Shown piece by piece: positions 5,801-41,633 of a DNA stretch of 64,000 nt (position 1 is the stretch's first letter; every line of letters begins with the position of its first letter). The position numbers and the translations under genes are program-made. The stretch covers positions 1 through 64,000 of the forward strand of contig CALXYN010000005.1 of the NCBI GenBank assembly GCA_944392975.1. Reading direction: 5' to 3'. Below the pieces are notes generated by a model that did no database searches, was not told the origin of the DNA, and saw nothing but the letters and a program-made list of their open reading frames with translations. Source of the DNA: an uncultured Spirochaetaceae bacterium (GTDB lineage: Bacteria; Spirochaetota; Spirochaetia; Sphaerochaetales; Sphaerochaetaceae).

Positions 5801-6717
5801 TATACAAAACTGCATCCGAACTGATTGGTAACACACCTCTTCTTGAACTATCGAATATTGAAAGAAAATACAACATCAATGCAGAAATACTCGCAAAGCT
5901 TGAATACCTCAACCCCACAGGATCCGCAAAGGACCGGGCCGCATTGATGATGATACTGGATGCTGAGGCAGATGGCAGGTTGAAAAGAGGTTCTGTAATC
6001 ATTGAACCTACATCGGGGAATACAGGCATCGCGCTTGCTTCAATTGCCGCCTCCAGAGGCTACCGAACGATTATCGTGATGCCGGACTCCATGTCTGAAG
6101 AGAGACAGATTCTTATGAAGGCATATGGTGCAGAACTTGTACTTACAGATGGCAAAAAAGGAATGAGTGGCGCAATAGCAAAGGCAGAGGAACTCAGAGC
6201 TGAGATTCCCGGCAGCTTTATTCCTGATCAGTTCTCAAATCCATCGAATCCGAAAGCACACATGCTTACTACAGGACCGGAGATTCTCAGGGATACGGAT
6301 GGTAAGCTGGACTTTCTGGTTGCAGGCGTTGGAACAGGAGGAACTATCTCTGGTACAGGAAAGTTTCTGAAAAAGAACATTCCAGGACTTAAAGTGGTAG
6401 CTGTGGAACCAGAGGACTCTCCCGTACTCTCAAAAGGGTATTCAGGGTTGCATGGAATTCAGGGAATCGGAGCAGGCTTTATTCCAAAGGCTCTCGATGT
6501 CAATGTATGCGAAAAAGTCATAACTGTAAGTAACGATGATGCATATAAAGCAGGCAGGATACTGGGAAATGAAGAAGGAATCCTCTGCGGGATATCATCA
6601 GGGGCAGCACTCCACGTAGCTATTGAACTTGCGAAGAACGAAGGAGAAGGAAAACGCATTGCAGTAATCCTCCCGGATAGCGGAGACAGATACCTCTCGA
6701 CACCTATGTTCAGATAG
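5797..6717 (+). CDS. cysK: Cysteine synthase A (O-acetylserine sulfhydrylase)
   Basis: 306-residue fold-II PLP enzyme that makes L-cysteine from O-acetylserine and sulfide. The PLP lysine lies in PTGSAKDRAA (Lys45), the phosphate-binding loop is PTSGNTG near residues 71-77, and GVGTGGTISGTG is present near residue 176. The frame is open 21 codons upstream inside cysE, but the ATG at 5797 (ATGA overlap, start MIYKTASELIGNTPLL) matches the family start. Together with cysE this forms a complete two-step cysteine unit. Confidence 0.94.
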   Translation: MIYKTASELIGNTPLLELSNIERKYNINAEILAKLEYLNPTGSAKDRAALMMILDAEADGRLKRGSVIIEPTSGNTGIALASIAASRGYRTIIVMPDSMSEERQILMKAYGAELVLTDGKKGMSGAIAKAEELRAEIPGSFIPDQFSNPSNPKAHMLTTGPEILRDTDGKLDFLVAGVGTGGTISGTGKFLKKNIPGLKVVAVEPEDSPVLSKGYSGLHGIQGIGAGFIPKALDVNVCEKVITVSNDDAYKAGRILGNEEGILCGISSGAALHVAIELAKNEGEGKRIAVILPDSGDRYLSTPMFR

Positions 6718-22700: not shown

Positions 22701-24551
22701 TCATTTTGCAAAGAAGATGAAGCCAGAGATTCTTATTCCTATCATGGAAGTAGCTTCCTCAATATCCTGCTTGGTCCAATATGCCTTTTTAACTCCGCCA
22801 TACTTGCGTACAAGTTGCCTTGCCATCGGATATGAGCTATCTACGTATCCGCACTTATCCTTAAGGCTCATTGAAACCTTGGTTCTGAACCATTCGTTAC
22901 CTATTGACCTGTTTATCTTCTGCTCAAGGAGGATTTTGTTGCCGAGCTTGTTCACGGTTCCATAGAACTCATCATCGGAGGTTATGCCGGCATCGGTCCG
23001 TATAGTCTGGATGCTACTTCCGCTGTAGGGCATGATATGCTCTATATCATACTTGGTTCCGAGGCTGAATGGGATGCCGTCTTCAGCTGCTACGAGATAC
23101 TCGTTCAGGAATACCAGAGAGTTCTTGCTGTAATCAGCAATGGAGGTCTTTATGTCATCAGGGCTCCATGTCTTTTTGATATGGTCAGAGAAATCCATGA
23201 TAATCTCCGAAACGAGAACGGATGGATTTGCAAGTTTCTCCAACTCGCCGAAAAGAAATGTTTTGAAGTTCCTGCTTGAGTATCCAGCATCAACAAGCTC
23301 AAGTATCGCGAAGAGCCTGATCATAGCATCAGCAAGCGGCGCTACATTCTTCTCTGTTATATCCTCTGCACTGAAGCGGTGAAAATAGGTGGAAAGGAAG
23401 AACTTGAAGCTATCATTGAATCTGGAAAGTACCTGTACCGAGGGGTATTCAGATGTCTTCTTCCATATTCGTGCGATGTTGTTCATATCATTGCAGAGCT
23501 CAACAGGATGCAACAGGAGATTCTTGTTGATTTCCGTGAAATACCTCCTAAGGCCAGGCATTGTTACATTTGGTGAACCGGATTCCCCAATGATTTCTCC
23601 TCCAGCTGCCTTTTCGTAGTACATCTGCTGCATCAGAATGGAATCGAGATCGCATATACCAAGCCCGTTGAGTTCGTCAACCTGGTCCTTGAGGTCTTCC
23701 CATGCTTTACGGAAGCTATTGCTCAGTCCCTGCGATTCAGCACTCGCATAAAGCTTGGCAGAGATTATATCCGAATCGTAAAGCGGCAGGCCGTCGGAAT
23801 TCAGCGAATTGAACATCGTTATTGCCTGATCAACCTTCCAGCTCTTGATCTCGATGAGCTCACATTTGCTGATTATCTTATCTGCTATGCTGTTGATTTG
23901 GGAATCGGAAAGCAGGCCGGCCTCGTTATAGAAGAACCTGAAGTTCCGGAAGAAATTCGTGAACTTGTTGTCTTTCTGTTTATACGGAATCTTCGTCGTA
24001 TTGCGTTCGGCTTCTTCATAGCTTGAAGACATTATGATTCTGTTGAAATCATCCTTATAGCGTTCGTTGATTGAAAGGTTTTCTATGAGCTCCACCTTCC
24101 TGTATATCTTAGCATCCATCTTTTCATCCGGTTCATCAGGAATGTCATCCTCCTTCGCCTTATATAAAATCTGCATCAGAGAACGCCTTTTTCCCCTCAG
24201 GCCGCGGCGGAGCTGGATGGAATCTTCGTCATTCGTCATCTTGCGGATCTTCTCGTTGATTCTCATAAGGAGTGCTTTAAACAGGAGATAGAACGTAGTG
24301 GTACGCTGTTGGCCGTCAATCAGTGCAAACTTAGTGTCGTTATCCTGGCAGTTTACGATTACGGTTCCAAAGAAATAGTTATCCTTACTATCTGCCTCTG
24401 AATAATCCAGTATATCCTGCCAGAGCTTATCGCAGTTCTCCTTTGTCCATGAGTATGCCCTCTGGTACTCCGGTATTACGAATATTGTATCCTCATCGAT
24501 ATTAAGGTATTTCCCGATTGCAGAGAGCTGAGGCTCTATATTCTTGGCCAT
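22701..24551 (-). CDS. DUF262/DUF1524 protein (GmrSD-like type IV restriction nuclease)
   Basis: 616 residues. The N-terminal DUF262 (ParB-like NTPase fold) shows IPEYQRAYSWTKENCDKLW near residue 28 and the nucleotide-binding ALIDGQQRTTTFYLLF near 77. The C-terminal DUF1524 HNH nuclease has YDIEHIMPYS near 505 and NKLGNKILLEQKINRSIGN near 535. GmrSD proteins cut glucosylated or otherwise modified phage DNA; this single-chain form is a likely type IV-like defence enzyme. The last residues (IGIRISGFIFFAK) do not look like the family tail, so the very end may have shifted frame. GGAGG precedes the ATG. Divergent from an ADP-ribosylglycohydrolase gene, 45 bp apart. Confidence 0.88.
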   Translation of the reverse strand: MAKNIEPQLSAIGKYLNIDEDTIFVIPEYQRAYSWTKENCDKLWQDILDYSEADSKDNYFFGTVIVNCQDNDTKFALIDGQQRTTTFYLLFKALLMRINEKIRKMTNDEDSIQLRRGLRGKRRSLMQILYKAKEDDIPDEPDEKMDAKIYRKVELIENLSINERYKDDFNRIIMSSSYEEAERNTTKIPYKQKDNKFTNFFRNFRFFYNEAGLLSDSQINSIADKIISKCELIEIKSWKVDQAITMFNSLNSDGLPLYDSDIISAKLYASAESQGLSNSFRKAWEDLKDQVDELNGLGICDLDSILMQQMYYEKAAGGEIIGESGSPNVTMPGLRRYFTEINKNLLLHPVELCNDMNNIARIWKKTSEYPSVQVLSRFNDSFKFFLSTYFHRFSAEDITEKNVAPLADAMIRLFAILELVDAGYSSRNFKTFLFGELEKLANPSVLVSEIIMDFSDHIKKTWSPDDIKTSIADYSKNSLVFLNEYLVAAEDGIPFSLGTKYDIEHIMPYSGSSIQTIRTDAGITSDDEFYGTVNKLGNKILLEQKINRSIGNEWFRTKVSMSLKDKCGYVDSSYPMARQLVRKYGGVKKAYWTKQDIEEATSMIGIRISGFIFFAK

Positions 24552-26358: not shown

Positions 26359-29300
26359 TTAACTAACCAAACCTGAATATCGGTTATAAACATATTCAAA
26401 TACCTGTTCACGGCAATTGTCGATTTCGCCCCAATCGTATGATTCCGGCAGATTTGAATAAAGAAGATTACGAATTGTATTTGAAACAGTAGCTTTTGTT
26501 TCATCTTTATCTGCCCAATGATCCATTTTTGAAATCTGATCCTTAACGGCTTGAAGCAACTCAATAGAAACCTTTTTGACTTTTGCAATATCAGCCCTTG
26601 AAAGGTTTTCGGCTTTTATTTTGTCGAAGATTGCAAGCTCTTCATCGGATGTAAAACCTTCTCTTACTACCCTAGCCTCCTCTTCCGTCAATTCAGAGGC
26701 AAAATCTATCAGTTCTTGGAATATCTTCTCAATTTCAGCCCGGTCTTGATCCTTGTTGTATTCCTCAATTATCTTCTGAAACCTTTCATAAAAGTCTATG
26801 CGGGTTGGATTGGCAGAACACATCTTGTCAAGTTTATCCGCAAGGATAGATTGAAGCTCCTTAAAGACAAGTGCCTTGTTCTTTGCTCTTTGGAACTCTT
26901 TTGCAAGCAATCCAAAATCAATTGCGCTAATATCGAACCTCGTGGAAGTACTTATTCTCTGTCCTTCCATTTCAAGTTCTCTGCTGATTATCTCATTGAT
27001 ACGTACCATCAGTTCTGTCGTATCATCATTGCTAGGCTTAGCATGGAGAGCATTATAAATTTCAGCAAGGGCGTTACGTTCTTTGATTTCAGAATAAGCC
27101 ATATCATCCCGGTCTGCGTACCTTGAAATCCGAATTAGCTCAGAAACAAGTGCTGAAAAATTCTTCTTGACTGTATCTGGAGAACAGACTGCATTTACGG
27201 CATCATGGAGCTTTCTTACTTTCTCCATGCTAGAAGCATTAACCAACTCATCGAGAGAAAAACCTCTCTCTGACAGCACTTCTCTGCTTTCAGACAATAA
27301 CTCACGTATATGCTTAATAAGCTCATCCTTGTCGATTGTAGGATCAGTTCCTGCTGTAGAAGCGTTCACAGTATAATCAGCAAGAGCTTTCCTCAAAGCT
27401 TTGACAATACCAATGTAATCGATGATGAGGCCATTAGACTTACCTTCATTCACACGATTTGCCCTAGCAATAGCCTGCATCAAAGTATGGGCTTTAAGAG
27501 GTTTATCAAGATAAAGACAAGAAAGAGATTTAACATCAAATCCGGTCAGCCACATAGCACATACAAATACAATGCGGAATGGATTATCTGAATCTTTGAA
27601 ATCCTTATCAAGGTCTGGGTTGTTCATCATCTTCCATCTATGAGGGATGATATCCAATCCCCATTTTTGGAAAACAGCTTCTTCATTCTGCTCTTGGCTG
27701 ATAACAACAGCCATTTCTGTTTCCTTCATCCATGTCAGTTTTCTGTTTAATTCCTGAACCTCCTGAAGATCCTTCTCTCGTTTAATCCTGAGCTGCAAAG
27801 CCTCTATCTCTTCATTCCAATATTCCTGAACATAGTTATACATTCGCACACATGTAACTTTGTTCAAGCATACAAACATGGCTTTACCGGTTGTCCAGAG
27901 ATCCGAATAATGGCGGACAAAATCTTTGGCTATCAATCGAAGCCGAGGTTCTGTGATAAGAATATGAATCTCTTTGCTGAAATTCTCTTCCAGTTTCGCC
28001 TGTTTCTCCTCATCAATGTCCGCTTCTTCAATGGCATTGATAATCTCATCAGTAATATCTGGATTATTAAGACCTCTTATTCGTACCCCGCGATTTTCAT
28101 AATACAGAGGAACTGTGGCTTTATCTTCTACAGCTCTTCTAAAGTCGTAGATGGATACATATTTGCCAAATGTTCTCTGCATGATGTTATCACTCGTAAA
28201 CAGAGGAGTTCCGGTAAAACCAATCTTAGAAGCCTCTGGCAAAAAATGATCTAAATTATCAGCAAATACACCATACTGGCTCCGATGTGCTTCATCAGAA
28301 AAGATTATTACATCGTGATCGAGATGTAATGGTGTTTCATTCGGTCTGTTAAACTTCTGAATAAGTGTGAAGATATAACTGCTGTTTCCTTTGAGTTTTG
28401 TAACAAGATCTTCTCCACTTGAAGCAATACAATTCTTGGAAGGGATACCATTCAGAAGACCACAATTTTCAAATGTGCCGCTGATCTGTTTATTCAGTTC
28501 ATCCCTATCAGTAAGAATAACGATAGTTGGAGAACCAATAAACTTCCTTCTGATCTTCTGTGCAAGGAAAAGCATCGAATAGCTCTTACCACTTCCCTGG
28601 GTATGCCAGAATACACCAAGACGTCCTTCTAGCTCTTTTCTATTTCTGTATGCTTCAACAGCCTTGTTTACACCGAGATATTGATGGTTTCTAGCAAGAA
28701 TCTTTACTAATCGTCCATCGGAATGATCATATAGGATGAAATTTTCTAAAATATCTAAAAAATTTTCTTTCTTGCAAATGCCTCTTAGCATTGTATCCAA
28801 AAGAGTATCGCCATTATCCTCCTCATTCAGACGTTTCCATTCACTGAAGAAATCAAACTTGCTGCCAAGAGTACCAATCTTAGAATCCAATCCGTTGGAC
28901 AACATTACAAATGCGTTGTAATAGAATAGCTGAGGAATAGTACACTGATAATCTGTATAGTTATCGTTATACGCATTCTGAACATCGATGCCAGCTTTCT
29001 TCAGTTCTATGAACAGCAAAGGCAATCCATTTACAAACCCAACGATATCTGCACGTCGATGATAGACATTGCCGTAAACAATGAATTCCTTGATAGCAAG
29101 AAAGTCATTGTTATCAGGATTGTTGAAATCAATTAGCAAAGCTTTACGACTCTCAACTTCACCTTTCTTGTTGACGTTTGAAACTGTTACACCGTCTCGA
29201 ATCAGATTGTATTTCTCTTCATTGATCTCCAAAAGGCTCTGTGTAGAAACTCGATGCTTCAAAACATTAATTACATCATCAATCTGCTTATCTGTTATCC

Positions 29301-29496
29301 AAGGATTTATTCTTTTGAGTGCTTTTTTGATATACCGTACAAGCAAGACCTCATTATATGATTCTCTGCCAAACGTCCCTGACTTACCAAGAATCTCAGT
29401 ATTATGAGCAAATGAAACATTCCAATGCAGCTCATTTTCCAGCAAGTCTCCTGCTGCATCTCTAACAAAAACATTCTCAGAATATTCATTGCTCAT
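26359..29496 (-). CDS. hsdR: Type I restriction enzyme R subunit
   Basis: 1045 residues. The N-terminal nuclease shows the PD-(D/E)XK pattern RADIVGFVNGLPLLFIELKK near residue 155. The SF2 translocase has Walker A HTQGSGKSYSMLFLAQ near 300, DEAH box IIFSDEAHRSQYG near 410, and SAT-like GFTGTPLF near 433; helicase motif VI lies at MQAIARANRVNEGKSNG near 690. The C-terminal third is helical. ATG at 29496 was chosen because GGGGA lies 8 nt upstream; the frame is open seven codons further. Last gene of the hsdM-hsdS-abiJ-hsdR operon; looks intact. Confidence 0.95.
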   Translation of the reverse strand: MSNEYSENVFVRDAAGDLLENELHWNVSFAHNTEILGKSGTFGRESYNEVLLVRYIKKALKRINPWITDKQIDDVINVLKHRVSTQSLLEINEEKYNLIRDGVTVSNVNKKGEVESRKALLIDFNNPDNNDFLAIKEFIVYGNVYHRRADIVGFVNGLPLLFIELKKAGIDVQNAYNDNYTDYQCTIPQLFYYNAFVMLSNGLDSKIGTLGSKFDFFSEWKRLNEEDNGDTLLDTMLRGICKKENFLDILENFILYDHSDGRLVKILARNHQYLGVNKAVEAYRNRKELEGRLGVFWHTQGSGKSYSMLFLAQKIRRKFIGSPTIVILTDRDELNKQISGTFENCGLLNGIPSKNCIASSGEDLVTKLKGNSSYIFTLIQKFNRPNETPLHLDHDVIIFSDEAHRSQYGVFADNLDHFLPEASKIGFTGTPLFTSDNIMQRTFGKYVSIYDFRRAVEDKATVPLYYENRGVRIRGLNNPDITDEIINAIEEADIDEEKQAKLEENFSKEIHILITEPRLRLIAKDFVRHYSDLWTTGKAMFVCLNKVTCVRMYNYVQEYWNEEIEALQLRIKREKDLQEVQELNRKLTWMKETEMAVVISQEQNEEAVFQKWGLDIIPHRWKMMNNPDLDKDFKDSDNPFRIVFVCAMWLTGFDVKSLSCLYLDKPLKAHTLMQAIARANRVNEGKSNGLIIDYIGIVKALRKALADYTVNASTAGTDPTIDKDELIKHIRELLSESREVLSERGFSLDELVNASSMEKVRKLHDAVNAVCSPDTVKKNFSALVSELIRISRYADRDDMAYSEIKERNALAEIYNALHAKPSNDDTTELMVRINEIISRELEMEGQRISTSTRFDISAIDFGLLAKEFQRAKNKALVFKELQSILADKLDKMCSANPTRIDFYERFQKIIEEYNKDQDRAEIEKIFQELIDFASELTEEEARVVREGFTSDEELAIFDKIKAENLSRADIAKVKKVSIELLQAVKDQISKMDHWADKDETKATVSNTIRNLLYSNLPESYDWGEIDNCREQVFEYVYNRYSGLVS

Positions 29497-29506
29497 AATA
29501 TTTCCC

Positions 29507-30358
29507 CTATTTATCAAATATTAACTTATATTTCTCTGAAAGGTAATTCACAAATGCAGAACAAGTAACAAGCATGAAGCGGGCATCTTCTATCTGAGGA
29601 TTCGCAAATTCCACATTGCCATGGCGAAATGCCCCATCATCAGATGAGTATCCATATAAAGTACTAAATGCATTCTTTAATGACTTATGCAATTTTATTT
29701 CATTCTTTTCTAAAACTGAAAGGCATTCTCCTAAAGTAGCTTTGCTATTCCCCGTAATATGTCGGCACATAGATTCAACGGCGATAATTGAATCTTTAAT
29801 ACTGTTTCTATAATCTGGATTCTGCCTATCTGAAAAAAGCTGCATGGCATTCTTAAGAAGCTGATTTACAGAATCAAATGGTGTTGTCTGAGCATTCTTA
29901 ATTGCTTCAAGTTCAATATCATCGAGCTTTGGAACAACCTTACAATCAACAAGACGATATTGAGCCTTTTCCATCTGGAGAATTCTATCAAATTCAGCAA
30001 CAATGGTATTTTTCTTGGAGACATCTACGAATTCCAAATAAAGTTCAATCAAATCATATATTGCATACCATTCTCTACTACTCATTATGAAATCACGGAG
30101 AGTGTTATAATTCAAATTATGGCTATTGCTACCCTGCCTCTCATATTCAATGCCAAATTCATATAATATTTTCTCAATAGGAGTCTCATTGAATCGGTAT
30201 CCTCCGTATCCATGCAATGACGTCCAAAAACCTGAATCATCATCCTCTTGTTCCAATTCAGATTTCCAGATGACCATCAACACTCGATGTTTCAATGAAT
30301 CTGAATCCATATTGAAAGACAATTCAGGTTTTAAATTATTTCTATCAGAAAAGGTCAT
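29507..30358 (-). CDS. AbiJ-like protein (AbiJ_NTD4 type) inside the restriction operon
   Basis: 283 residues. N-terminal section: HRVLMVIWKSE and RFNETPIEKILYEFGIEYER, like the N-terminal domain of AbiJ abortive-infection proteins. C-terminal section: IIAVESMCRHITGNSKATLG, ECLSVLEKNEIKLHKSLKNA, YSSDDGAFRHGN, a helical domain often seen in such proteins and possibly HEPN-related. It overlaps hsdS by 4 bp and the upstream extension of hsdR, so it is an integral part of the operon. AbiJ proteins are thought to abort phage infection, but the mechanism is not known. Assignment is by resemblance; the domain boundary is inferred. Confidence 0.65.
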   Translation of the reverse strand: MTFSDRNNLKPELSFNMDSDSLKHRVLMVIWKSELEQEDDDSGFWTSLHGYGGYRFNETPIEKILYEFGIEYERQGSNSHNLNYNTLRDFIMSSREWYAIYDLIELYLEFVDVSKKNTIVAEFDRILQMEKAQYRLVDCKVVPKLDDIELEAIKNAQTTPFDSVNQLLKNAMQLFSDRQNPDYRNSIKDSIIAVESMCRHITGNSKATLGECLSVLEKNEIKLHKSLKNAFSTLYGYSSDDGAFRHGNVEFANPQIEDARFMLVTCSAFVNYLSEKYKLIFDK

Positions 30359-31476
30359 CTTTGCATCTCCTCATTGTTGGTATCTTTAAATATTCTATTC
30401 ATAAGAAGATCTCTTGCACTTCTGGCACTCTCAATCACTTTCTCACATACTGCTATCTTATCAAAAAACGGAGCTACCCTTCTTTCAAACAAATTCAATT
30501 GTTTCTTTGACAAATGAGGAACTGCAAGGGAATTCAACTGCTTTGCATTGACATGAGGCTGTGCTGCTCCTCTCTGTAAAATTTTCATTAAATCTGGCGA
30601 TGATTTCAAAAAACAATACACAAAATAAAGATAATCAGTTTTGCGACAATCTAAGAACGAACAGTCAGAAGCCCAAACAGGTCTTGTATATAATCGAACG
30701 AATCCAGCATTAGCACCAGAAGCACTAACTGTTATAACAGGGCTTTCTGTATTCGAAACATTATGAAAATAAGAAGGTTCCAATCCCCCTGCCACGACTG
30801 GTACAATTCCAGCACATGCGTCCTTCGCTGTTATAACTTTTCCTCGATTAAATTCTCCAATTTCATTTAATATACATGTACCATCACAGGATTCTATCAC
30901 CTGCAAATAGTTAACAATAGCAGATTCCTCCAACAAGGAAATCTGCCTCTGATTATTCTCAATAAGATCATCATATACTGAGAGATATGAGGCTATCTTG
31001 TCTTGAACCTCAATAGGAGGTAAAAGAACAAAACAATCGCCAAGGCGATCTTGACTTAAGTTCTGTATATTTGCACCAACTGCATTATTTGATAAGGATT
31101 TTCTAAATAATGACGAATGAGTGTAATAAATTAGATATCGAGGATTTACAACACTTGTATCAATTCTTGCGCGAATACAGAAACCGGAAAATGTAACAGG
31201 TTCTCCAGGTAGATTTTCAATGAGTAAGGAACGCCCCACAAGATTCTTATTACCATTAGAACGAACAAAAACAATATCGCCGTCTTTTAATATAAATTCT
31301 TTCCTTACTATAGACTCTTTAATCTCTCCAAGTTCAGTATAGTCAGGAATCAATTTGGTTCCAAAATTCGATACTCCAATATACTTGATTCCGTGAGTAG
31401 TATATGTAGACTTATCAAAATTTAAGCCATTACGAAATTCTGCAAATTCCTTAAATCTGATAAACCCGTATTTCAT
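30355..31476 (-). CDS. hsdS: Type I restriction enzyme specificity subunit
   Basis: 373 residues with two target-recognition domains and two conserved helical spacers. TRD1 about 1-150 ends with PPIEVQDKIASYLSVYDDLI, and TRD2 about 195-330 ends with HLSKKQLNLFERRVAPFFDK. TRD1 contains LKDGDIVFVRSNG and TRD2 contains PVITVSASGANAGFV. It defines the DNA sequence recognised by the HsdM/HsdR complex. Starts within the hsdM stop (ATGA overlap). Confidence 0.93.
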   Translation of the reverse strand: MKYGFIRFKEFAEFRNGLNFDKSTYTTHGIKYIGVSNFGTKLIPDYTELGEIKESIVRKEFILKDGDIVFVRSNGNKNLVGRSLLIENLPGEPVTFSGFCIRARIDTSVVNPRYLIYYTHSSLFRKSLSNNAVGANIQNLSQDRLGDCFVLLPPIEVQDKIASYLSVYDDLIENNQRQISLLEESAIVNYLQVIESCDGTCILNEIGEFNRGKVITAKDACAGIVPVVAGGLEPSYFHNVSNTESPVITVSASGANAGFVRLYTRPVWASDCSFLDCRKTDYLYFVYCFLKSSPDLMKILQRGAAQPHVNAKQLNSLAVPHLSKKQLNLFERRVAPFFDKIAVCEKVIESARSARDLLMNRIFKDTNNEEMQR

Positions 31477-33314
31477 ATATCTAATTTCTCCATATTCTTT
31501 GAAATCTGTGCCATCAGCTCATTAGACTGATTCTGCAAGTCTTGGAGTTCATGATAGATTTCTTTCATTCGTTGATGAAAATCAACCCCATCATCTTCAA
31601 TGGGAGCAACACCAACATATACACCAGGTGTCAAGGAGTAATTCTTAGCTGCAATTTCGCTTCGGGTTGCAATCTTGCAGAGTCCAGGAATATCCTTATA
31701 TTCCCCTTCTCCAAATTTCTCGAATAACCATTCAGCTTCTTTTGTAAGAGCTATCAAATCTGCAAGATCTTCAAGCTGATCATCATAGTCTGCTCGCTTT
31801 TGTTTACGCTGTTTTGTTGGAGTTGCTTTTACATCATCGTTAGCTTTCTTTTCCAACTCTGCATATTGGGATTCAAACGTTTTGACAGCCTCTGCAAATG
31901 ATGCTCCATCAAAGTTCGTGATGAGTTCTGCGATTCTAGATTTATACTCATCGAGAAGTGCTTTGTACTTATCTGTTTCGCCTCTGTACAGATGTACTAT
32001 TGCCTGGAGGTTTTTCAGCTGCCATTCATTCCACTCACAGAGAGTGCGATCAACCTGTGTGAAATAATTCCTTGCATCTATAAACAGAACCTTATCCTGA
32101 AGTTCAGACTTCTTCCCTTTATCAAAGAACCAAAGCGAGCAAGGAAGAGACTTAGTATAGAAGAAATTGTTTCCTACGCTTATCATCACATCGACATGTC
32201 CTGTATCAAGCAACCGCTTTCTTATCTCCCTGTCTTTTCCAGAACTGTCAGTTGCAGATGAAGCCATAACAAACCCTGCTCTACCATGTTCGTTCAGATA
32301 AGCATAGAAATAAGAAATCCAAAGATAATTGGCATTGCTGACCTCTTTTGTGTCCTTGTTATATGAAGGAAGCCCGAATGGTAACCTACCAGCACTTGAT
32401 GCAGCTTCTACTTTCACTTTATCAACATTGAATGGTGGATTAGCCATAACATAATCACATTTGCCTTCTAGATTATGGGCATCATGATAGAATGTATTGG
32501 CTTCATCACCGGACTTTATCACTCCAGTAAGCCCATGAACAGCAATATTCATCATGCATAGCTTGGCATTGTATTCGACCTTTTCCTGTCCATAAAATGT
32601 CATAGCCTGATTTGCCTGCATACCGGTACTGTTCACAAAATCACCGGTCTGAACAAACATACCGCCACTTCCACAGGCAGGATCAAGAAGAACTCCATGA
32701 GTTGGCTCAAGAACATTGACTATCATCTTTACCAATGACTTTGGTGTGAAGAACACGCCATCATCTGAAGCAACAGTTTTTGAGAACTTATTGAGGAAGT
32801 ATTCATAAATCCTACCGATGACATCTCCCCCAACATCATCAAGAGCATTGTTATTGAATATTCTGAGAAGTTCGGCCAAAAGATCATCAGCAAAGCTCGT
32901 GTAGTTCTTAGGTAATACTCCAACTAGCTGACTACTCTGCTCCTCAATCAATGTCATGGCATTATTCACGACTTCTCCCAAGCTATTCATTGCATTACCT
33001 GAACTACTGATAAGGCCAAGGGAAGCAATATCTTCAGGGAGATTCACAAGATATGAGTACTGTGCTTCTTTTGGAAGGAAAATAGCACTTTTCTGTTTGA
33101 AGTCACTTGCTTCTACAGGAAGTGGAACACCTCCTCTTGTTGGTCTGTTGACCAAGATTTCTTTCTCTACAATCTTAAATCTGCTATATGCATAGCGTAA
33201 GAAGATAAGTCCCAGCACAGGCATACAATATTCATTTGATGTAAGCTTTGATCCCGCACGAAGCAGATCAGCAGATTCCCATAATTGTTTTTCGAGCTTC
33301 TTTATATTTGTCAT
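31473..33314 (-). CDS. hsdM: Type I restriction enzyme DNA methyltransferase subunit
   Basis: 613 residues. N-terminal helical HsdM domain (KKLEKQLWESADLLRAGSKL, MPVLGLIFLRYAYSRF), then N6-adenine methyltransferase domain with SAM motif I DPACGSGGMFVQTGDFV near residue 207 and catalytic motif IV VMANPPFNVDKV near 286. A helical C-terminal region follows. All motifs are intact, in contrast to the HsdM-like gene 18 bp upstream. Forms M2S and R2M2S complexes with HsdS and HsdR. Confidence 0.95.
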   Translation of the reverse strand: MTNIKKLEKQLWESADLLRAGSKLTSNEYCMPVLGLIFLRYAYSRFKIVEKEILVNRPTRGGVPLPVEASDFKQKSAIFLPKEAQYSYLVNLPEDIASLGLISSSGNAMNSLGEVVNNAMTLIEEQSSQLVGVLPKNYTSFADDLLAELLRIFNNNALDDVGGDVIGRIYEYFLNKFSKTVASDDGVFFTPKSLVKMIVNVLEPTHGVLLDPACGSGGMFVQTGDFVNSTGMQANQAMTFYGQEKVEYNAKLCMMNIAVHGLTGVIKSGDEANTFYHDAHNLEGKCDYVMANPPFNVDKVKVEAASSAGRLPFGLPSYNKDTKEVSNANYLWISYFYAYLNEHGRAGFVMASSATDSSGKDREIRKRLLDTGHVDVMISVGNNFFYTKSLPCSLWFFDKGKKSELQDKVLFIDARNYFTQVDRTLCEWNEWQLKNLQAIVHLYRGETDKYKALLDEYKSRIAELITNFDGASFAEAVKTFESQYAELEKKANDDVKATPTKQRKQKRADYDDQLEDLADLIALTKEAEWLFEKFGEGEYKDIPGLCKIATRSEIAAKNYSLTPGVYVGVAPIEDDGVDFHQRMKEIYHELQDLQNQSNELMAQISKNMEKLDI

Positions 33315-33332: not shown

Positions 33333-34640
33333 TCAGAATACTGATAAATCTTTCAGTTTATTTTCTATCGCTGCATAGAGTGTCTTCAACTCTGCATTGA
33401 TTTCATCAATAGAAAAAGTCGAAGATTCCACAGGCTTCAAATATGCAATCGGAGAAATATTGCCAATATCCAACTCTTCATATGGAACAACATTTGATAT
33501 CTCTGTAACAAGATTATTCTTGATGATATCAGCAATGCTGATGGTCACATCTTTACCATTTTCATCAATGTATGCTTCATATTCAGTGTCTATCTTGCAT
33601 TTGGTAACATCTACGAATACAACTTTCTCATTCTCTTCTTTTGAAAGAATAAAGAGATTAGTCTTAACAGCTGAACCATACCAGCTTCCAGGAAGCGATA
33701 CTACTGCTTTAAGGATATGCTTATTGATAATATATTCCCTAACTGTCTGAATCTGTTTCTGTGTCCCTGCTAAATATGGCCCGGTTGATGTGATTACAGC
33801 TGTGCCACCTTTCTTTAGGGCCTGAATAGCACGCAACAAGCAAATACCAGACAAATCCCTTGTCGCGATACCATCGCACAAGAAATCAGAATCAATATAT
33901 GTAAGCCCCAACGGGGGATCCATGAATATTTTATCAGCAACCGCAATTTCTATTTCCTCTGCTGAGAGGTTCCTTTCTTCAAAACACAAATTATCAATAC
34001 CAAACAATATCGAGAGAAGAAGAACACTTGATTTCTTTTTAATATCATAAAGTCTGCATTCTTTGGCATTCCCTTCAGTAATAGCAAAAGTTGATATCCC
34101 CGAACCTGCAACATAATCAACAAATGCATCATCAACTGTCACATTGAGCAGATTTCTTACAAGACGATACAAAGCATATGAAGCAGCAGATAAAGTCCTA
34201 CGTGAATAATACATCGCAGAAAGATTATTCACAGCCTGCACAATATTATCGAGCTCTTCTATTTTCTCATCTCCATTAAGAGAGGATAGATTCCATCCTG
34301 GAAGGATTGAAAGATTGATATTGTTGATAAATTGATTGGCTATATTCTCAGAAAACCGGATCCTGAGAACATGCAGTTCTGTTCTTGTTTTATTCTCCAA
34401 GTTAGTAATAATTAAAGGAACATCATCAGCTGGATAATCTGAAGTTTTCATGTCACGGAAGTAATCTGAAACTCTTCGATACTTCTCGAAATCAGATACC
34501 TGAGACATTCCAATGCCTTTATCTGATACATATTTAAGTGTTATGAGACTGAGATAGCATTCGATTGCAACGTCATCTACAATACTGGCAAATAATGCCG
34601 CCATTCTTCGAAGTTCATATTTTACTTCCTGGTTCAACAT
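33333..34640 (-). CDS. Degenerate HsdM-like N-6 DNA methylase
   Basis: 435 residues. A helical N-terminal half (about 1-165) resembles HsdM. The Rossmann part has VDYVAGSGISTFAITEG near residue 172 in place of DPACGSGG, and MDPPLGLTYIDSD near 238 where adenine methylases have NPP(Y/F/W). The position that stacks on the flipped base is thus Leu. Later segments (LKKGGTAVITSTGPYLAGT, LKAVVSLPGSWYG, VKTNLFILSKE) are well conserved with HsdM. It may bind DNA and SAM without methylating efficiently. It overlaps the HsdS-like gene by 7 bp; AAGGAG precedes the ATG. Function unknown. Confidence 0.75.
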   Translation of the reverse strand: MLNQEVKYELRRMAALFASIVDDVAIECYLSLITLKYVSDKGIGMSQVSDFEKYRRVSDYFRDMKTSDYPADDVPLIITNLENKTRTELHVLRIRFSENIANQFINNINLSILPGWNLSSLNGDEKIEELDNIVQAVNNLSAMYYSRRTLSAASYALYRLVRNLLNVTVDDAFVDYVAGSGISTFAITEGNAKECRLYDIKKKSSVLLLSILFGIDNLCFEERNLSAEEIEIAVADKIFMDPPLGLTYIDSDFLCDGIATRDLSGICLLRAIQALKKGGTAVITSTGPYLAGTQKQIQTVREYIINKHILKAVVSLPGSWYGSAVKTNLFILSKEENEKVVFVDVTKCKIDTEYEAYIDENGKDVTISIADIIKNNLVTEISNVVPYEELDIGNISPIAYLKPVESSTFSIDEINAELKTLYAAIENKLKDLSVF

Positions 34641-35209
34641 TCCACGTTCTCCTTAAAAAGCAATTCAAATCTCTCTTTCTCAAGGCTAAAGACATTTTCA
34701 ACAAGATATCTCAGTTCCAAAATACTGCGATATCTTTTTCCAATTTCAGCCTGAATTGCTGAAGAGAGTTCTGGAATTTCCAAAGTACGAACACTATTGA
34801 TTTTCAATATGGCCACAACAGACCCACCGCATGCTACTTCATACTGATGCATAGCAGTTTTACTGTTCAGATATGCCAATAAGAAGAATGGATCAACATC
34901 TTTAATTTCAGTCAAACGGCAGCAGAATGAAGGAACAAGCAATCCTTCTTCAGTTTTGTCTATATATGCAGCACCATAAGGGGACGAAAGCTTAAAGATA
35001 ATATCCCCTTCCTTTGTTAAGAAATTTGGAGATGGATCTTTTGAGATCGGGGCTTCATCAAGATCGTCATGGATGACACCGCCATCGCGGATAGCCTTCG
35101 GCATGAGAATCCGTGCAGATTTAATAGCTGAAGAAGTTTCTCCTGATTTAGTTTTCAATCTTGATATAATCTGTCCAGAAATTACATTACATAGCGAATC
35201 CAGTCTCAT
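34634..35209 (-). CDS. HsdS-like protein with a single target-recognition domain
   Basis: 191 residues. It has one TRD followed by one conserved helix: MRLDSLCNVISGQIISRL, then KEGDIIFKLSSPYGAAYI, FLLAYLNSKTAMHQYE and LEIPELSSAIQAEIGKRYRS. Ordinary HsdS proteins have two TRDs; half-sized ones act as dimers in some type I systems. Start at the ATG preceded by AGGAGG at 6 nt. It overlaps the upstream 146-residue gene by 23 bp and the HsdM-like gene by 7 bp, so the three are tightly coupled. Confidence 0.75.
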   Translation of the reverse strand: MRLDSLCNVISGQIISRLKTKSGETSSAIKSARILMPKAIRDGGVIHDDLDEAPISKDPSPNFLTKEGDIIFKLSSPYGAAYIDKTEEGLLVPSFCCRLTEIKDVDPFFLLAYLNSKTAMHQYEVACGGSVVAILKINSVRTLEIPELSSAIQAEIGKRYRSILELRYLVENVFSLEKERFELLFKENVEC

Positions 35210-35627
35210 ATTCAACCTCCTGAGCTATAAGCTTATTGTACGAATTAAAAGAATCCAGCTTCCACTTTGTTTTCTGTTCTCTGGATTCATAAACCTTATC
35301 GTTTCTAGGTTTCCAGTTTGATTCTTTCTTCAGTTCTGATATTGAACGACTATCATCGTAATTTTTCCCTGATGCTAGAAACTCCCTCTTATTTCTTGCC
35401 TGAAGATATGGATTCATATCGTTGACTTGTTGTTGAAGCCTGTATTCCCTACGAGTAACTTCCCTTACTTTGATAATGGCATCTTTATTACCATGTTTAA
35501 CCCTTGGTATATATCGACATATCTTGCTTGCTTCTCCGGAAGTCTCTGCAACGACCGGAAAATCTATAGCTACATATCTTCCGCGCCCGACATGCCCACA
35601 AGCCGCAGTAACAATATAATATTTCAT
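35187..35627 (-). CDS. Unrecognised 146-residue protein, first gene of the methylase operon
   Basis: I do not recognise a named family. N-terminal part MKYYIVTAACGHVGRGRYVA is compact and hydrophobic, followed by IDFPVVAETSGEASKICRYI and a conserved-looking PRVKHGNKDAIIKVREV. The C-terminal half is charged and rich in Arg/Lys/Glu, probably extended or helical. No signal peptide or transmembrane segment. It is read from a consensus promoter (35666-35694) and overlaps the HsdS-like gene. Position suggests a dedicated partner of the HsdM-like/HsdS-like pair. GGAG precedes the ATG. Confidence 0.7.
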   Translation of the reverse strand: MKYYIVTAACGHVGRGRYVAIDFPVVAETSGEASKICRYIPRVKHGNKDAIIKVREVTRREYRLQQQVNDMNPYLQARNKREFLASGKNYDDSRSISELKKESNWKPRNDKVYESREQKTKWKLDSFNSYNKLIAQEVEYETGFAM

Positions 35628-35645
35628 ACAGTATCTCCTATGTAT

Positions 35646-35724
35646 TATTTTTTAGGTACATCTGCATAATATAACCACCCATAATTCATGTCAATATATT
35701 TACTGATATATTTTTTAGGTACAT
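35646..35724 (-). promoter_or_regulatory. Consensus promoter bracketed by 16-bp direct repeats (seven-gene restriction operon)
   Basis: On the minus strand: -35 TTGACA (35689-35694), 17-bp spacer, -10 TATTAT (35666-35671). Identical sequences ATGTACCTAAAAAATA lie at 35709-35724, just upstream of the -35, and at 35646-35661, at or just after the start point. This bracketing suggests cooperative repression or DNA looping. The first gene starts at 35627. Confidence 0.8.
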
Positions 35725-37490: not shown

Positions 37491-40400
37491 ATGAATGAAA
37501 GCATTATCGAAACACTTGTAAAATATAAACTCGATAACTTCAACTACCACCATGGAGGTGACGCTGATTTTGAACTGCTTGGAATAAAGCTCATTCAAGC
37601 TGCATTTCCGGAAGCTAGTGTCAGACAATCAAGTGGCTCGGATGCGGGCGGCGATGGCGGAAGAGATGGCATAGCTGTCATAAACGGAGAAGAATACAAA
37701 ATCGCCTGCTCAATCGACAAAAATCCCAAAAGAAAAATCAGAAAGGAAGCCTCTCGGGAAAAAGCATATCACGACAAGATGATATACTGTACAAATCAGC
37801 TCATTGATGAAAAAACAAAAATTGAACTTCAGAATGAAATAAAAGGCTTGATAATCATCGATTGCGATCAAGCTGTTAGCCTTATTATGAAAAATGAAGC
37901 TCTGAAAAAACTCATAGGTATACCTGCTGAACAGCTGGCTATTTCCTTCGAGTACCTTAGAAATCATAACCAGTTCTTTCGAGAGAAAAATACAATCGAT
38001 TCATATATTGAAAGAACAGTTTTCACCAAACACGGTGAGTTTGCTTTAATTGATTGGATCATCAATTCTCCAGATAAAACACTTTTCAGAAGGCTATTCC
38101 TAGTCGAAGCTCCTGCCGGATACGGAAAAACTTCCTCCCTGAAAAAACTCCATCAGAAGATAATTGAAACAGAAAAATTTCTTCCCCCCGTGTATATCAA
38201 TCTTGAAGACTGCTATAGAAAAGGACTGCTTAACACCATCATAGATGAAACATATGCAGTCTCTGGAGATTACCGACTGGAAGATTGCTTTCTGATTCTT
38301 GATTCATATGACAGAATAGGTTCAAAAGCTGATGATTTATTCTGCGAGTTGTCTGTATTCCTCTCCAACCAGAGTAGATTTCGATCCATTCTGATTGCCG
38401 CACGGGAAGGAGAATATGACACCTCTGCTATTGAAGAATTTGCCCGTAAACACAATCTTGAAGTCGATAAAGCATGGCTTGTAGCTATTAAAGAACAGGA
38501 TATCGATATATTGCTCGATTCAGCAGTTTCAGGAGCAAATGTAAAAAGGGAAATTGTTGATTTCCTCAGATTTAATTCAGTTTATGAAAATATATTCTAC
38601 GTCACTAATGTAATACGTTTTTATTCGGACAGGAAAAAAATACCGAAAGTCCTTGATGATCTGCTTGCTTTCCTTCTCCGCAAAGAACGTGAATTGCATA
38701 ATCTTTCAGAGAATGAGGTTCTAGCTTTCTCTTTCTATTCAATGCTTTCTGACGCAAAGGACTTTAAATCTAAATTCGGATATTCAATCAATTCCTTTTC
38801 ACATCAGATTATCGAAGAATATGCAGCTGCAATAGTCCTATCACGTTTATCGATTACAGAAATCCTCAGATACACAACTGTTGACGGATTTATAATCTCC
38901 AATCTGAAAAATACTATAGGCCTCCTTCTCAACCACATTCTTCTCTACGAAAAAGGAGTGAATCTGATGGAAGTGCTTATGAAAAACTCTGAGAATTGCG
39001 ATGTATTCTTCAAAATAGAGCCGACAAATCTGACAAAAGACATCAAACTCAGAATATTCAGGGATTACGTCAATCATGTTCTAAAAGAACACATATATGA
39101 CATAAATATGGAATTATCCAAATTCATCGGAACTGATCCTGAAGAATATCTGAATATCATTATGCTGAAACTTATATATGCAGATGATAACGAAAATCAA
39201 AATCTGCTCTTTGGCATAATACTGGCGGCAGTAAGGCAAGAAGAACGGTTAGTTTTCACCAATCTAGCGAAACAGCTTATCACATTCGCCTATTCACACA
39301 TACTCAGCGGTAAACCGTTATACATTGGGGCACTGTCATGGATTTTTCTTTATATAAAAAGGCAAATTCCTGAACTTAAGGCTGAAGAACTCAGTATCTT
39401 CCAGAATTTCCTTCTGAAGGATATTTCCTCACCTGAAACATATATCGGATTCTGCTTCCTATTTCACAACTCTGTAAAAAACATCAATGAGAAGGAATAT
39501 ACGGAGATATGGAACAAATACTGGAATCTCTGTGAAAGAAATATACTGCCAGCACATTACATTCCAGATGAAATAGAAGAAGGGACCACAGAACAGACAT
39601 CCCTTGTATTTATACCAAGGCCATTTTATGACTTCATTACCCATGCCATAGAAGAAGGCGCCATTAGTTACTCAAAGGTATTGGGATTTATGATTGCATC
39701 ACTGAAGAACAGTAGATCTGCGGCATATCAGGAACGGGACATCATCCAATTTATGATATATGGTATCAATCAATACGGTGTTGAAAGCAAAGAAACCGAG
39801 CAGATTCCTGCAGCAATGCAAATCCTCTGTGATCTGTCACCTTATGATTCAACATGGCATGATTTCTTTATGGAAACTGAGCAAAATAAGAACGCACTAA
39901 TAAAAATGATGTGCATGGCATTCAGCAAGATTAAATACCTCTATTCTACTGGACTAAGTGCTGTTGCCGAAGAAATAATGAAATCATCAGATTTATATAA
40001 TTCGGTCTTGTCATGTATAAGCAAAGAAGAATTCGGCGATTTTCTGAAAGTCTACTTCCCTATGTTCTCTCGAACCGATTTCTCTGATGATGTATATGAG
40101 CAACTTCCTGAATTACTCAGAAATGATATAGATAGGACTGAATCAGATAAAAGGGAAACTCAGGAAAAGATACAAAAAGAAAAAGAACGGAAACTAGAAC
40201 AGCAGAAGCAATCCATACACGAGCTTTTCAATGAAATAGAACTGCTCAGCAAAATAGAGAAAATATATTCTGCTCTGGATTATTCAATAAATCTAAATGC
40301 TTCTTTGCAAGAGTACAGCAAGACACACGATGATTATTTCTGTATTCATTGCATAAAGGAATTGCGGGAAAAAGATTACGATTCGTTCCTTAAAGAATGG

Positions 40401-41633
40401 AAATCAGGAAATAAGGCTTACATACGCTTATGGCTTGTCCTCTCCTATATCAATAGTTCAGATATGGGAATACATATATTAAGTGGAAAAGAAATGGAGG
40501 AAGTCTGGAACTGGATCAGGATGCTGATCCCTATAATAACCGAAAACTGCAATGTACAAAGGATAGTCGCTGCTGTTCTTCAATATCCAGAGATGCAGGA
40601 ATTTGCAGCAAATGATTCAATCCTTGCTTTACTGCCATATGTTTGGTGGCATCAGTTTATCGACACGCCTACAATCACAACATTCAAGACAACAGGGAGT
40701 TATGATTATCAGTTATTTTCCGTCGATTTTCTCTATCAAATAGTCACAGAAGAGGAAGTTGACGAATATATACTTGAAGACCTGCCTCTTGATAACTGTA
40801 ACCGCGGAGAATTCTTTACTATGTATATAGACGCCCACAGGGAAATAACCCAATCTGAAATTGTCAGAAGAGCAGCAAAGAAGCGATACTTAACATTTCT
40901 TATCAGATTCTTAGATGATCCTAACTTGTCCTCTGGCAACATGAAGATTCTCGCAGAGCTTGATATCCATATCAATGATTTTCCATGCAAGAAACTTTAT
41001 GAATCATTATCAAGAGCACTTTTGTCAAAAAAGAAAGATTTCAAGATTATTCCATCTTGGAGAATACTCAACTTTTTCATATCTGGTTCAAATAAAGTTG
41101 ATAAAGCGACTGCTGGCATATATCTGCAAAAAATATTCCAAAATATTGATGAGGGACCAGAAAATGATAAATGCAAGAAGAAAGTTGCCGAAATATATAT
41201 GCTACATATACACGATAATTCTGAAATCAATTGCTGGTACATAAAATATCTCATGAGGACAGGCAGTACGATCTCGGAAGAATTTGCATATTCAACTTCA
41301 CAGGAAGCTTTTTTTGCTGATATAGATTCGCTGAAGCTATTTCCGAATCTAATCGCAACCTGCGAAGACAAATGTGATGATTATCATCGTATTATCATAG
41401 GTCTAGTAAACAATTCACTGAAATATTTCTGCAACATAATCCAGTCGCTTAGCGAAGAACAAAGGAAAATCTTTCTGAATACAATGGATATCCTATGTTC
41501 ATCCGGTAGAAACTTCTGGGCATTCCCGCTACGGAAAGAAGCAAGAACAAAACTACTGATGAGCCTCTCACATAAACCAAGTGAGGATGAAATCATCATA
41601 CAATGTAGGAACATCATAAAGGGCACTCTCTAA
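37491..41633 (+). CDS. PD-(D/E)XK nuclease-STAND/NACHT-like NTPase with long helical C-terminus (Avs-like)
   Basis: 1380 residues. Residues 20-150: Mrr/PD-(D/E)XK-like nuclease, with SGSDAGGDGGRDGIAV and EEYKIACS giving D59...E68-x-K70. Residues 200-450: P-loop NTPase, Walker A VEAPAGYGKTSS (Lys213), Walker B CFLILDSYDRIG (residues 266-277), ILIAAREGE near 300 (sensor/Arg region), and FSHQIIEEYAAAI (446-ish), the helical motif that ends NACHT/STAND modules. Residues 450-1380: no recognised domain, mostly helical, with a charged coiled-coil near 885-925; probably the sensor. This order (nuclease-STAND-sensor) matches antiviral STAND (Avs) proteins that detect phage proteins and degrade DNA. 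Its only nearby gene is a broken one. Identification as Avs-like is by architecture, not by a homologue I can name. Confidence 0.75.
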   Translation: MNESIIETLVKYKLDNFNYHHGGDADFELLGIKLIQAAFPEASVRQSSGSDAGGDGGRDGIAVINGEEYKIACSIDKNPKRKIRKEASREKAYHDKMIYCTNQLIDEKTKIELQNEIKGLIIIDCDQAVSLIMKNEALKKLIGIPAEQLAISFEYLRNHNQFFREKNTIDSYIERTVFTKHGEFALIDWIINSPDKTLFRRLFLVEAPAGYGKTSSLKKLHQKIIETEKFLPPVYINLEDCYRKGLLNTIIDETYAVSGDYRLEDCFLILDSYDRIGSKADDLFCELSVFLSNQSRFRSILIAAREGEYDTSAIEEFARKHNLEVDKAWLVAIKEQDIDILLDSAVSGANVKREIVDFLRFNSVYENIFYVTNVIRFYSDRKKIPKVLDDLLAFLLRKERELHNLSENEVLAFSFYSMLSDAKDFKSKFGYSINSFSHQIIEEYAAAIVLSRLSITEILRYTTVDGFIISNLKNTIGLLLNHILLYEKGVNLMEVLMKNSENCDVFFKIEPTNLTKDIKLRIFRDYVNHVLKEHIYDINMELSKFIGTDPEEYLNIIMLKLIYADDNENQNLLFGIILAAVRQEERLVFTNLAKQLITFAYSHILSGKPLYIGALSWIFLYIKRQIPELKAEELSIFQNFLLKDISSPETYIGFCFLFHNSVKNINEKEYTEIWNKYWNLCERNILPAHYIPDEIEEGTTEQTSLVFIPRPFYDFITHAIEEGAISYSKVLGFMIASLKNSRSAAYQERDIIQFMIYGINQYGVESKETEQIPAAMQILCDLSPYDSTWHDFFMETEQNKNALIKMMCMAFSKIKYLYSTGLSAVAEEIMKSSDLYNSVLSCISKEEFGDFLKVYFPMFSRTDFSDDVYEQLPELLRNDIDRTESDKRETQEKIQKEKERKLEQQKQSIHELFNEIELLSKIEKIYSALDYSINLNASLQEYSKTHDDYFCIHCIKELREKDYDSFLKEWKSGNKAYIRLWLVLSYINSSDMGIHILSGKEMEEVWNWIRMLIPIITENCNVQRIVAAVLQYPEMQEFAANDSILALLPYVWWHQFIDTPTITTFKTTGSYDYQLFSVDFLYQIVTEEEVDEYILEDLPLDNCNRGEFFTMYIDAHREITQSEIVRRAAKKRYLTFLIRFLDDPNLSSGNMKILAELDIHINDFPCKKLYESLSRALLSKKKDFKIIPSWRILNFFISGSNKVDKATAGIYLQKIFQNIDEGPENDKCKKKVAEIYMLHIHDNSEINCWYIKYLMRTGSTISEEFAYSTSQEAFFADIDSLKLFPNLIATCEDKCDDYHRIIIGLVNNSLKYFCNIIQSLSEEQRKIFLNTMDILCSSGRNFWAFPLRKEARTKLLMSLSHKPSEDEIIIQCRNIIKGTL

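Follow-up and report, generated by a model that had tools for sequence, protein, structure and literature searches.

A three-gene module consisting of a small protein (X), a one-TRD specificity-like subunit (S') and an HsdM-like pseudo-methyltransferase (M') was found in the same order in four genomes from two phyla, two of the four being close kin. In all four modules a pair of operator-like repeats brackets a sigma70-type promoter, which is the new element of this analysis. As judged from sequence, this suggests that a former restriction enzyme has been reused as a self-regulating DNA-binding switch. The reading that we prefer, with a probability of roughly one half, is that X-S'-M' encodes a non-methylating relative of the 'type 1 1/2' methyltransferases which acts as an autoregulatory DNA-binding complex and which, where it is linked to a type I operon, would control that operon.

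ORF calls in the window (the whole stretch of 64,000 nucleotides analysed) agreed with the first-pass annotation on the three genes, all of which are on the minus strand. X (35187-35627, 146 aa) carries an N-terminal CGHVG...RVKHxxKDAI domain of a family without a name. S' (34634-35209) has 191 aa counted from its ATG, the mechanical ORF beginning two codons earlier at the TTG at 35215, and M' (33333-34640) has 435 aa. The X and S' genes overlap by 23 bp (35187-35209) and the S' and M' genes by 7 bp (34634-34640), and 18 bp separate the end of M' from a canonical HsdM gene (31473-33314; 613 aa, with DPACGSGG and NPPF). This is followed, on the same strand, by a two-TRD HsdS (30355-31476; 373 aa), an AbiJ_NTD4-domain protein (29507-30358) within the type I operon between HsdS and HsdR, and HsdR itself (26359-29517; 1052 aa, with HSDR_N and motor domains). 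The type I system 3' of the module is complete, as had been proposed. A GmrSD-type gene (22701-24551, minus strand) is located near the type I operon. On the other side of the module, a plus-strand gene (37491-41633) encodes a 1380-aa protein with a weak match to nSTAND NTPases (E 0.02) and an N-terminal stretch which by eye resembles a PD-(D/E)xK nuclease; this might be an Avs-like defence gene.

The combination of a GSG in motif I with DPPL in motif IV, described in the first-pass annotation for the HsdM-like protein, is present in M' of the window. Across the four M' proteins motif IV reads DPPL, EPPL, NDGP and SDFP, none of which conforms to [DNS]PP[YFW], and the GxFxTP pocket motif, which should precede motif I, is missing from all four. 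The canonical HsdM proteins aligned alongside (n=13) retain NPPF or NPPY, with one reading NMPF, and have the pocket motif as GEFFTP, GEFYTP, GAHFTS and the like. The GxG of motif I and an aspartate (D199 in M' numbering) are invariant in the four M' proteins, as would be expected if M' and S' formed an active methyltransferase with an unusual Asp-Pro-Pro-Leu motif IV. We consider this highly improbable, as the other three M' proteins do not share the DPPL sequence and the pocket motif is lost throughout. On these motifs, the M'/S' pair very probably cannot methylate, and the earlier description of a non-methylating pair is favoured.

Homology of M' to type I methyltransferase subunits is apparent in profile searches. 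The M' profile matched the M subunit of EcoR124II in the PDB at 1e-26, and the M1 and M2 subunits of 7vru were also matched. The window M' itself matched N6_Mtase (Pfam, PF02384) at 1.9e-8 over residues 266-347 only, and the M' of the Acholeplasmatales module (see below) at 1.5e-34. In a core tree with canonical HsdM proteins the four M' sequences formed one clade (UFBoot 96), which was far from the HsdM proteins encoded next to the modules. The AlphaFold2 model of M' (four sequences, single chain) had a pLDDT of 43.6 and was too poor for use.

The single TRD ascribed to the HsdS-like protein was borne out. S' matched Methylase_S (Pfam) weakly (E 0.028) and the mad5/Specificity_I profiles at 2.6e-13 to 2e-8. 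Membership of the MADS system was considered and rejected: the score of S' (26 bits) is below the curated NF047740 cut-off (400), and the matches listed for the eight proteins scanned included no further mad family. TRDs are the most variable part of ordinary type I systems. In each of the pairs compared, identity was higher in the S' TRD than in M' (60 vs 48%; 34-38 vs 23-28%), the reverse of the pattern in ordinary HsdS, and the DNA specificity of S' therefore looks fixed.

The module most similar to that of the window is in an uncultured Spirochaetales bacterium of the same genus (locus L014, genome G066, CASENB010000001.1), with the three genes at 53, 56 and 48% identity. The second is in an Acholeplasmatales MAG (L032), in which the order X-S'-M'-HsdM-HsdS-HsdR repeats the layout of the window, and the third is on a short contig of a MAG filed as Erysipelothrix rhusiopathiae (L034). 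The module proteins of L032 and L034 are about 21-37% identical to those of the window. Recurrence in three further genomes makes the arrangement more than a chance one. Overlapping or tight gene spacing is retained across the four modules, which is in keeping with the earlier proposal of a three-gene module, and a type I operon lies directly 3' in two of them (window and L032). A GmrSD gene is present just upstream of the L032 module. The L014 module, 259 bp past a tRNA-Thr gene, has no adjoining type I gene, and in the G066 assembly, which is 86% complete, there was no HSDR_N match and no N6_Mtase match resembling a canonical HsdM. The suggestion that the module might be self-standing thus holds for one genome, in which type I HsdR and canonical HsdM were not detectable.

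The M' clade is small (four members, two of them from one genus), and the three modules besides that of the window are all from MAGs. No further member was clearly above the background of canonical HsdM in approximately 790 Bacilli and Clostridia genomes. Viral contigs yielded nothing when scanned with M', with three forms of X or with S', and tblastn of plasmids and phages with M' gave partial matches of about 26% identity which, where annotated, were type I M proteins. Two candidates were rejected: a 594-aa gene following S' on a Fusobacteria plasmid (L116), which was M'-like by position and proved to be unrelated, and the M' of L110, which grouped with canonical HsdM on the tree.

The rarity of the clade and the loss of its catalytic motifs would both fit a functionless, decaying remnant of a former system of the 'type 1 1/2' or type I kind. 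Such decay is improbable given that the ORFs are intact at 21-56% identity across phyla and that the S' TRD, the promoter and the operator-like element are all conserved. It is also at odds with the pattern of substitution between the window and L014: the differences at codon positions 1, 2 and 3 were 0.39, 0.30 and 0.57 for X, 0.32, 0.23 and 0.59 for S', and 0.40, 0.26 and 0.59 for M'. With the third position so much more divergent than the first two, all three genes are under purifying selection as proteins.

X had no match in Pfam, NCBIfam or PADLOC and no convincing PHROG or PDB sequence match, so that the earlier statement that it belongs to no nameable family is sustained. The X profile had no PDB sequence match below E 0.1, and Foldseek searches with the X model gave weak matches only (E 0.13 or worse in the PDB, 0.017 or worse among viral proteins). 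The targets were for the most part uncharacterised small phage proteins, along with ribosomal proteins, and no function was drawn from them. The AlphaFold2 model of X (pLDDT 80.9) is a beta-beta-alpha-beta arrangement plus helices, with strands at residues 2-10, 18-27 and 51-57 and a helix at 30-37. The invariant core comprises C10 G11 H12 V13, A27, R38, R42 V43 K44 H45, K48 and A50. The topology of the model suggests that the two conserved loops share one end of the fold, a placement that would be compatible with a site for binding metal or phosphate.

X is much more widespread than the module. A profile scan of 84,980 species returned 23 loci, of which three hold X-S'-M' (L014, L032 and L034); the scan was built on a pair of short peptide patterns and must have overlooked some members. 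With two scans, the window and a phage taken together, 38 distinct X loci were found, four with S'/M' and 34 without. The small protein had been put forward as a dedicated partner of the M/S pair; its homologues are instead scattered, a distribution which the first-pass annotation had itself named as speaking against that claim. The proposed association is supported in the other direction, with X upstream of the pair throughout the four-member M' clade. At six loci X genes adjoin nrdG/nrdD (anaerobic ribonucleotide reductase), namely L013 (phage NatCom_17901), L024, L028, L159, L160 and L162. Further X genes neighbour XRE-type regulators, and some form fusions with BspA-type leucine-rich repeats. 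In L020, L025, L163, L165, L166 and L168 the X domain is placed behind an N-terminal region, which matches BspA-type leucine-rich repeats in L020 and is similar-looking in the other five; several of these six genes adjoin a gene of about 320 aa which may encode a nuclease.

This distribution bears on the possibility that the module is a self-standing defence or sensor system, in which S'/M' would sense the sequence or modification of invading DNA and X would be the effector. The setting is suggestive, as the window module lies in an island with type I, AbiJ_NTD4 and GmrSD genes, the L032 module is beside GmrSD and the stand-alone L014 copy is near a tRNA gene; the invariant Cys/His/Arg/Lys cluster of X might also suit an effector. 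We nevertheless judge a defence role to be unlikely, with 34 X loci that lack S'/M', among them a phage locus and operons with nrdG/nrdD, against it. In addition, no toxin or nuclease signature was seen in X in the PHROG, PDB and Foldseek searches.

The evidence for regulation comes from the region upstream of X. In the window, two direct copies of the unit ATGTACCTAAAAAATA, identical at 16 of 16 positions, are 63 bp apart on the minus strand. Copy 1 (35704-35723, TGTACCTAAAAAATATATCA) is upstream of the -35 hexamer, and copy 2 (35641-35660, TGTACCTAAAAAATAATACA) is at the predicted transcription start; between them is the sigma70-type promoter (TTGACA-17-TATTAT, 35666-35694, 11/12 match). The repeats have the same placement around a sigma70-type promoter in L014, L032 and L034. 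Alignment of the four modules gave the 20-bp element TGTACMWAAAAAAYAWNWCA, with ten positions invariant across all eight copies. The pair of each module was significant at p<0.01 against shuffles. At p<0.02 against dinucleotide shuffles, a pair was found in four of four modules, in one of 23 X-only loci (L029) and in none of ten hsdM-first loci (4/4 vs 1/33; Fisher p=7.6e-5). As the pair was first noticed post hoc in the window, the replication consists of the other three modules, one of which is from the same genus. An invertible promoter, prompted by inverted copies in L087 and L105, was also considered and was set aside, the module copies being direct repeats. The regulatory role suggested earlier for the M/S pair is favoured by these operator-like repeats at its own promoter.

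In a genome search allowing up to two mismatches, zero-mismatch copies of the element in G000, G066 and G394 were at the module only, those in the genome of the window being copies 1 and 2. Four further genomes from the genus that lack the module had no element at 0 or 1 mismatch. Because the exact sites are confined to the module, it is the module, and not a regulon, that looks to be the target. The sites also appear to be independent of the type I enzyme, since G066 keeps both module and sites without an HSDR_N match or a canonical HsdM.

In the mechanism that we propose, S' and M' would assemble as M2S2, as expected from the 'type 1 1/2' enzymes (PMC3874165), with S' supplying a fixed DNA specificity and M', presumably unable to use SAM productively, retained as a structural clamp. 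The complex would bind both 20-bp sites around its own promoter, and this binding would repress the promoter or hold expression at a set level. The same switch would also control hsdM-hsdS-hsdR in the window and in L032, and X would join the complex as a small accessory domain.

Some features of the repeats are less easily accommodated. Their spacing varies (63 bp in the window and L014, 70 bp in L032 and 80 bp in L034), which counts against the autoregulatory reading. The element is only weakly dyad-symmetric, with at best 40% symmetric matches, where an interrupted palindrome would be expected for a simple S' homodimer. As an X-only locus also carries a repeat pair, the repeats could instead be bound by X or by another factor, including a host factor. 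In this locus, L029, the sole X-only one with a significant pair, the copies (AAACAGGCAGAAAGTA, 6450-6564) are 80 bp apart, and a downstream gene has, by eye, the look of a CRISPR-associated CARF protein.

One-TRD S genes were also found leading type I operons with intact HsdM and full HsdS, in a spirochaete set, which from its neighbours we take to be Brachyspira, and in Bacilli genomes. Half-S leaders were recorded at L067-L073, L087, L088, L105-L107, L113, L116 and L117. The half-S TRD follows HsdM where compared (43-98% identity); for the full HsdS of those operons, the first TRD mostly gave 15-31%, with two pairs alike at 62 and 96%. Repeat pairs reached p<0.02 in three of 11 other half-S operons (L110, L113 and L116) against 1/33 in the controls, a marginal excess (Fisher p=0.043). 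In L116 (Fusobacteria ZRK30 plasmid CP102407.1, 5850-6000), two copies of GTAATTTATGGAAAATTAC, an interrupted palindrome, flank the TTGACT..TATAAT promoter of the half-S gene. The pair in L087 had p=0.023, and L087 and the related L105-L107 keep inverted TGTYATTT-N8-like copies around the promoter, which in most are not individually significant. The hsdRSMS promoter of S. xylosus, a held-out case, had no operator pair, and only a hairpin resembling the hsdR terminator was seen.

M'-S' fusions of 571-586 aa, with N6_Mtase followed by one Methylase_S, were observed in L089 (1899-3650), L111 (4302-6020), L112 (6397-8112) and L115 (6059-7819), where motif IV reads NYPF, NYPF, CDFS and DPPA, respectively. 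A canonical HsdM follows them except in L112, where the fusion is alone; in L089 and L115 an extra gene of about 180 aa lies in between.

A wider reading, which we hold tentatively, is that of a class of transcriptional regulators evolved from type I methyltransferases, in which a half S on a dead HsdM acts through paired operators around its own promoter to control restriction operons, the half-S genes that lead operons with an intact HsdM possibly being the form of this switch that still methylates.

The S. xylosus system also bears on a different explanation, in which S' and M' would be auxiliary subunits that join HsdM/HsdS, either to provide a second specificity or to assist assembly, and would alter methylation or restriction in the manner reported for hsdS_short. 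In S. xylosus, proper methylation was seen only with the short HsdS gene present, and the half-HsdS alters methylation even from a foreign promoter (PMC10030836). Heteromeric M1/M2 type I methyltransferases exist (PMC9613975), and a complete type I operon adjoins two of the four modules. As a general account this seems rather doubtful: the G066 module has no detectable type I partner in an assembly of 86% completeness, the module M' proteins are far from the adjoining HsdM on the tree, and the operator pair and the fixed TRD of S' would be left unexplained. For the linked copies, a direct enzyme role is a live rival, because the S. xylosus short HsdS changes methylation under a foreign promoter. 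That this half-HsdS acts on methylation itself, and that its native promoter lacks the pair, counts against the autoregulatory reading.

To our knowledge, the control of type I operons on entry into a new cell is poorly understood. If the autoregulatory reading is true, a restriction methyltransferase has been turned into a dedicated DNA-binding regulator, for which the exact operator is in hand, and a possible role for half-HsdS genes is at once suggested. Models for the interaction of two kinds of HsdS within one system are lacking according to the 2025 BlihIA paper (PMC12429846), and there is no agreed account of the role of the short S in hsdRSMS (PMC10030836, PMC12429846).

Among known systems, the 'type 1 1/2' methyltransferases M.AhdI, M.BsaBI and M.PshAI are M2S2 enzymes with a separate M and a one-TRD S (PMC3874165). 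The module resembles them in its adjacent but separate M' and one-TRD S', in four genomes, and differs in the loss of motif IV and GxFxTP from M', in the X gene in front, and in that no type II nuclease gene was seen beside it. PacII-type M1M2S enzymes, which are non-canonical type I methyltransferases, likewise have two different M-like proteins, and the M' profile matches both M1 and M2 in 7vru. In PacII, however, each M is catalytic (NPPF/NPPY) and a single two-TRD S serves the two (PMC9613975), whereas the motifs of M' are lost. RptR of gammaproteobacteria is a small repressor of type I operons which binds the 6-bp palindrome TAGCTA (PMC12255303). The point in common would be a type I operon that is autoregulated by way of promoter repeats, as predicted here. 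The module element differs in being 20 bp long (TGTAC...), and for X there was neither a PDB sequence match below E 0.1 nor a significant fold match. The staphylococcal hsdRSMS operons have a short S gene of 191 aa ahead of hsdM, and also a two-TRD hsdS (PMC10030836, PMC12429846), and these operons, like BlihIA, resemble the linked arrangement in combining one short and one long HsdS. In hsdRSMS, however, the short S directly precedes an intact HsdM, whereas in the module M' lies between S' and HsdM, and S' has a degenerate M' and an X of its own, in a unit that can stand alone.
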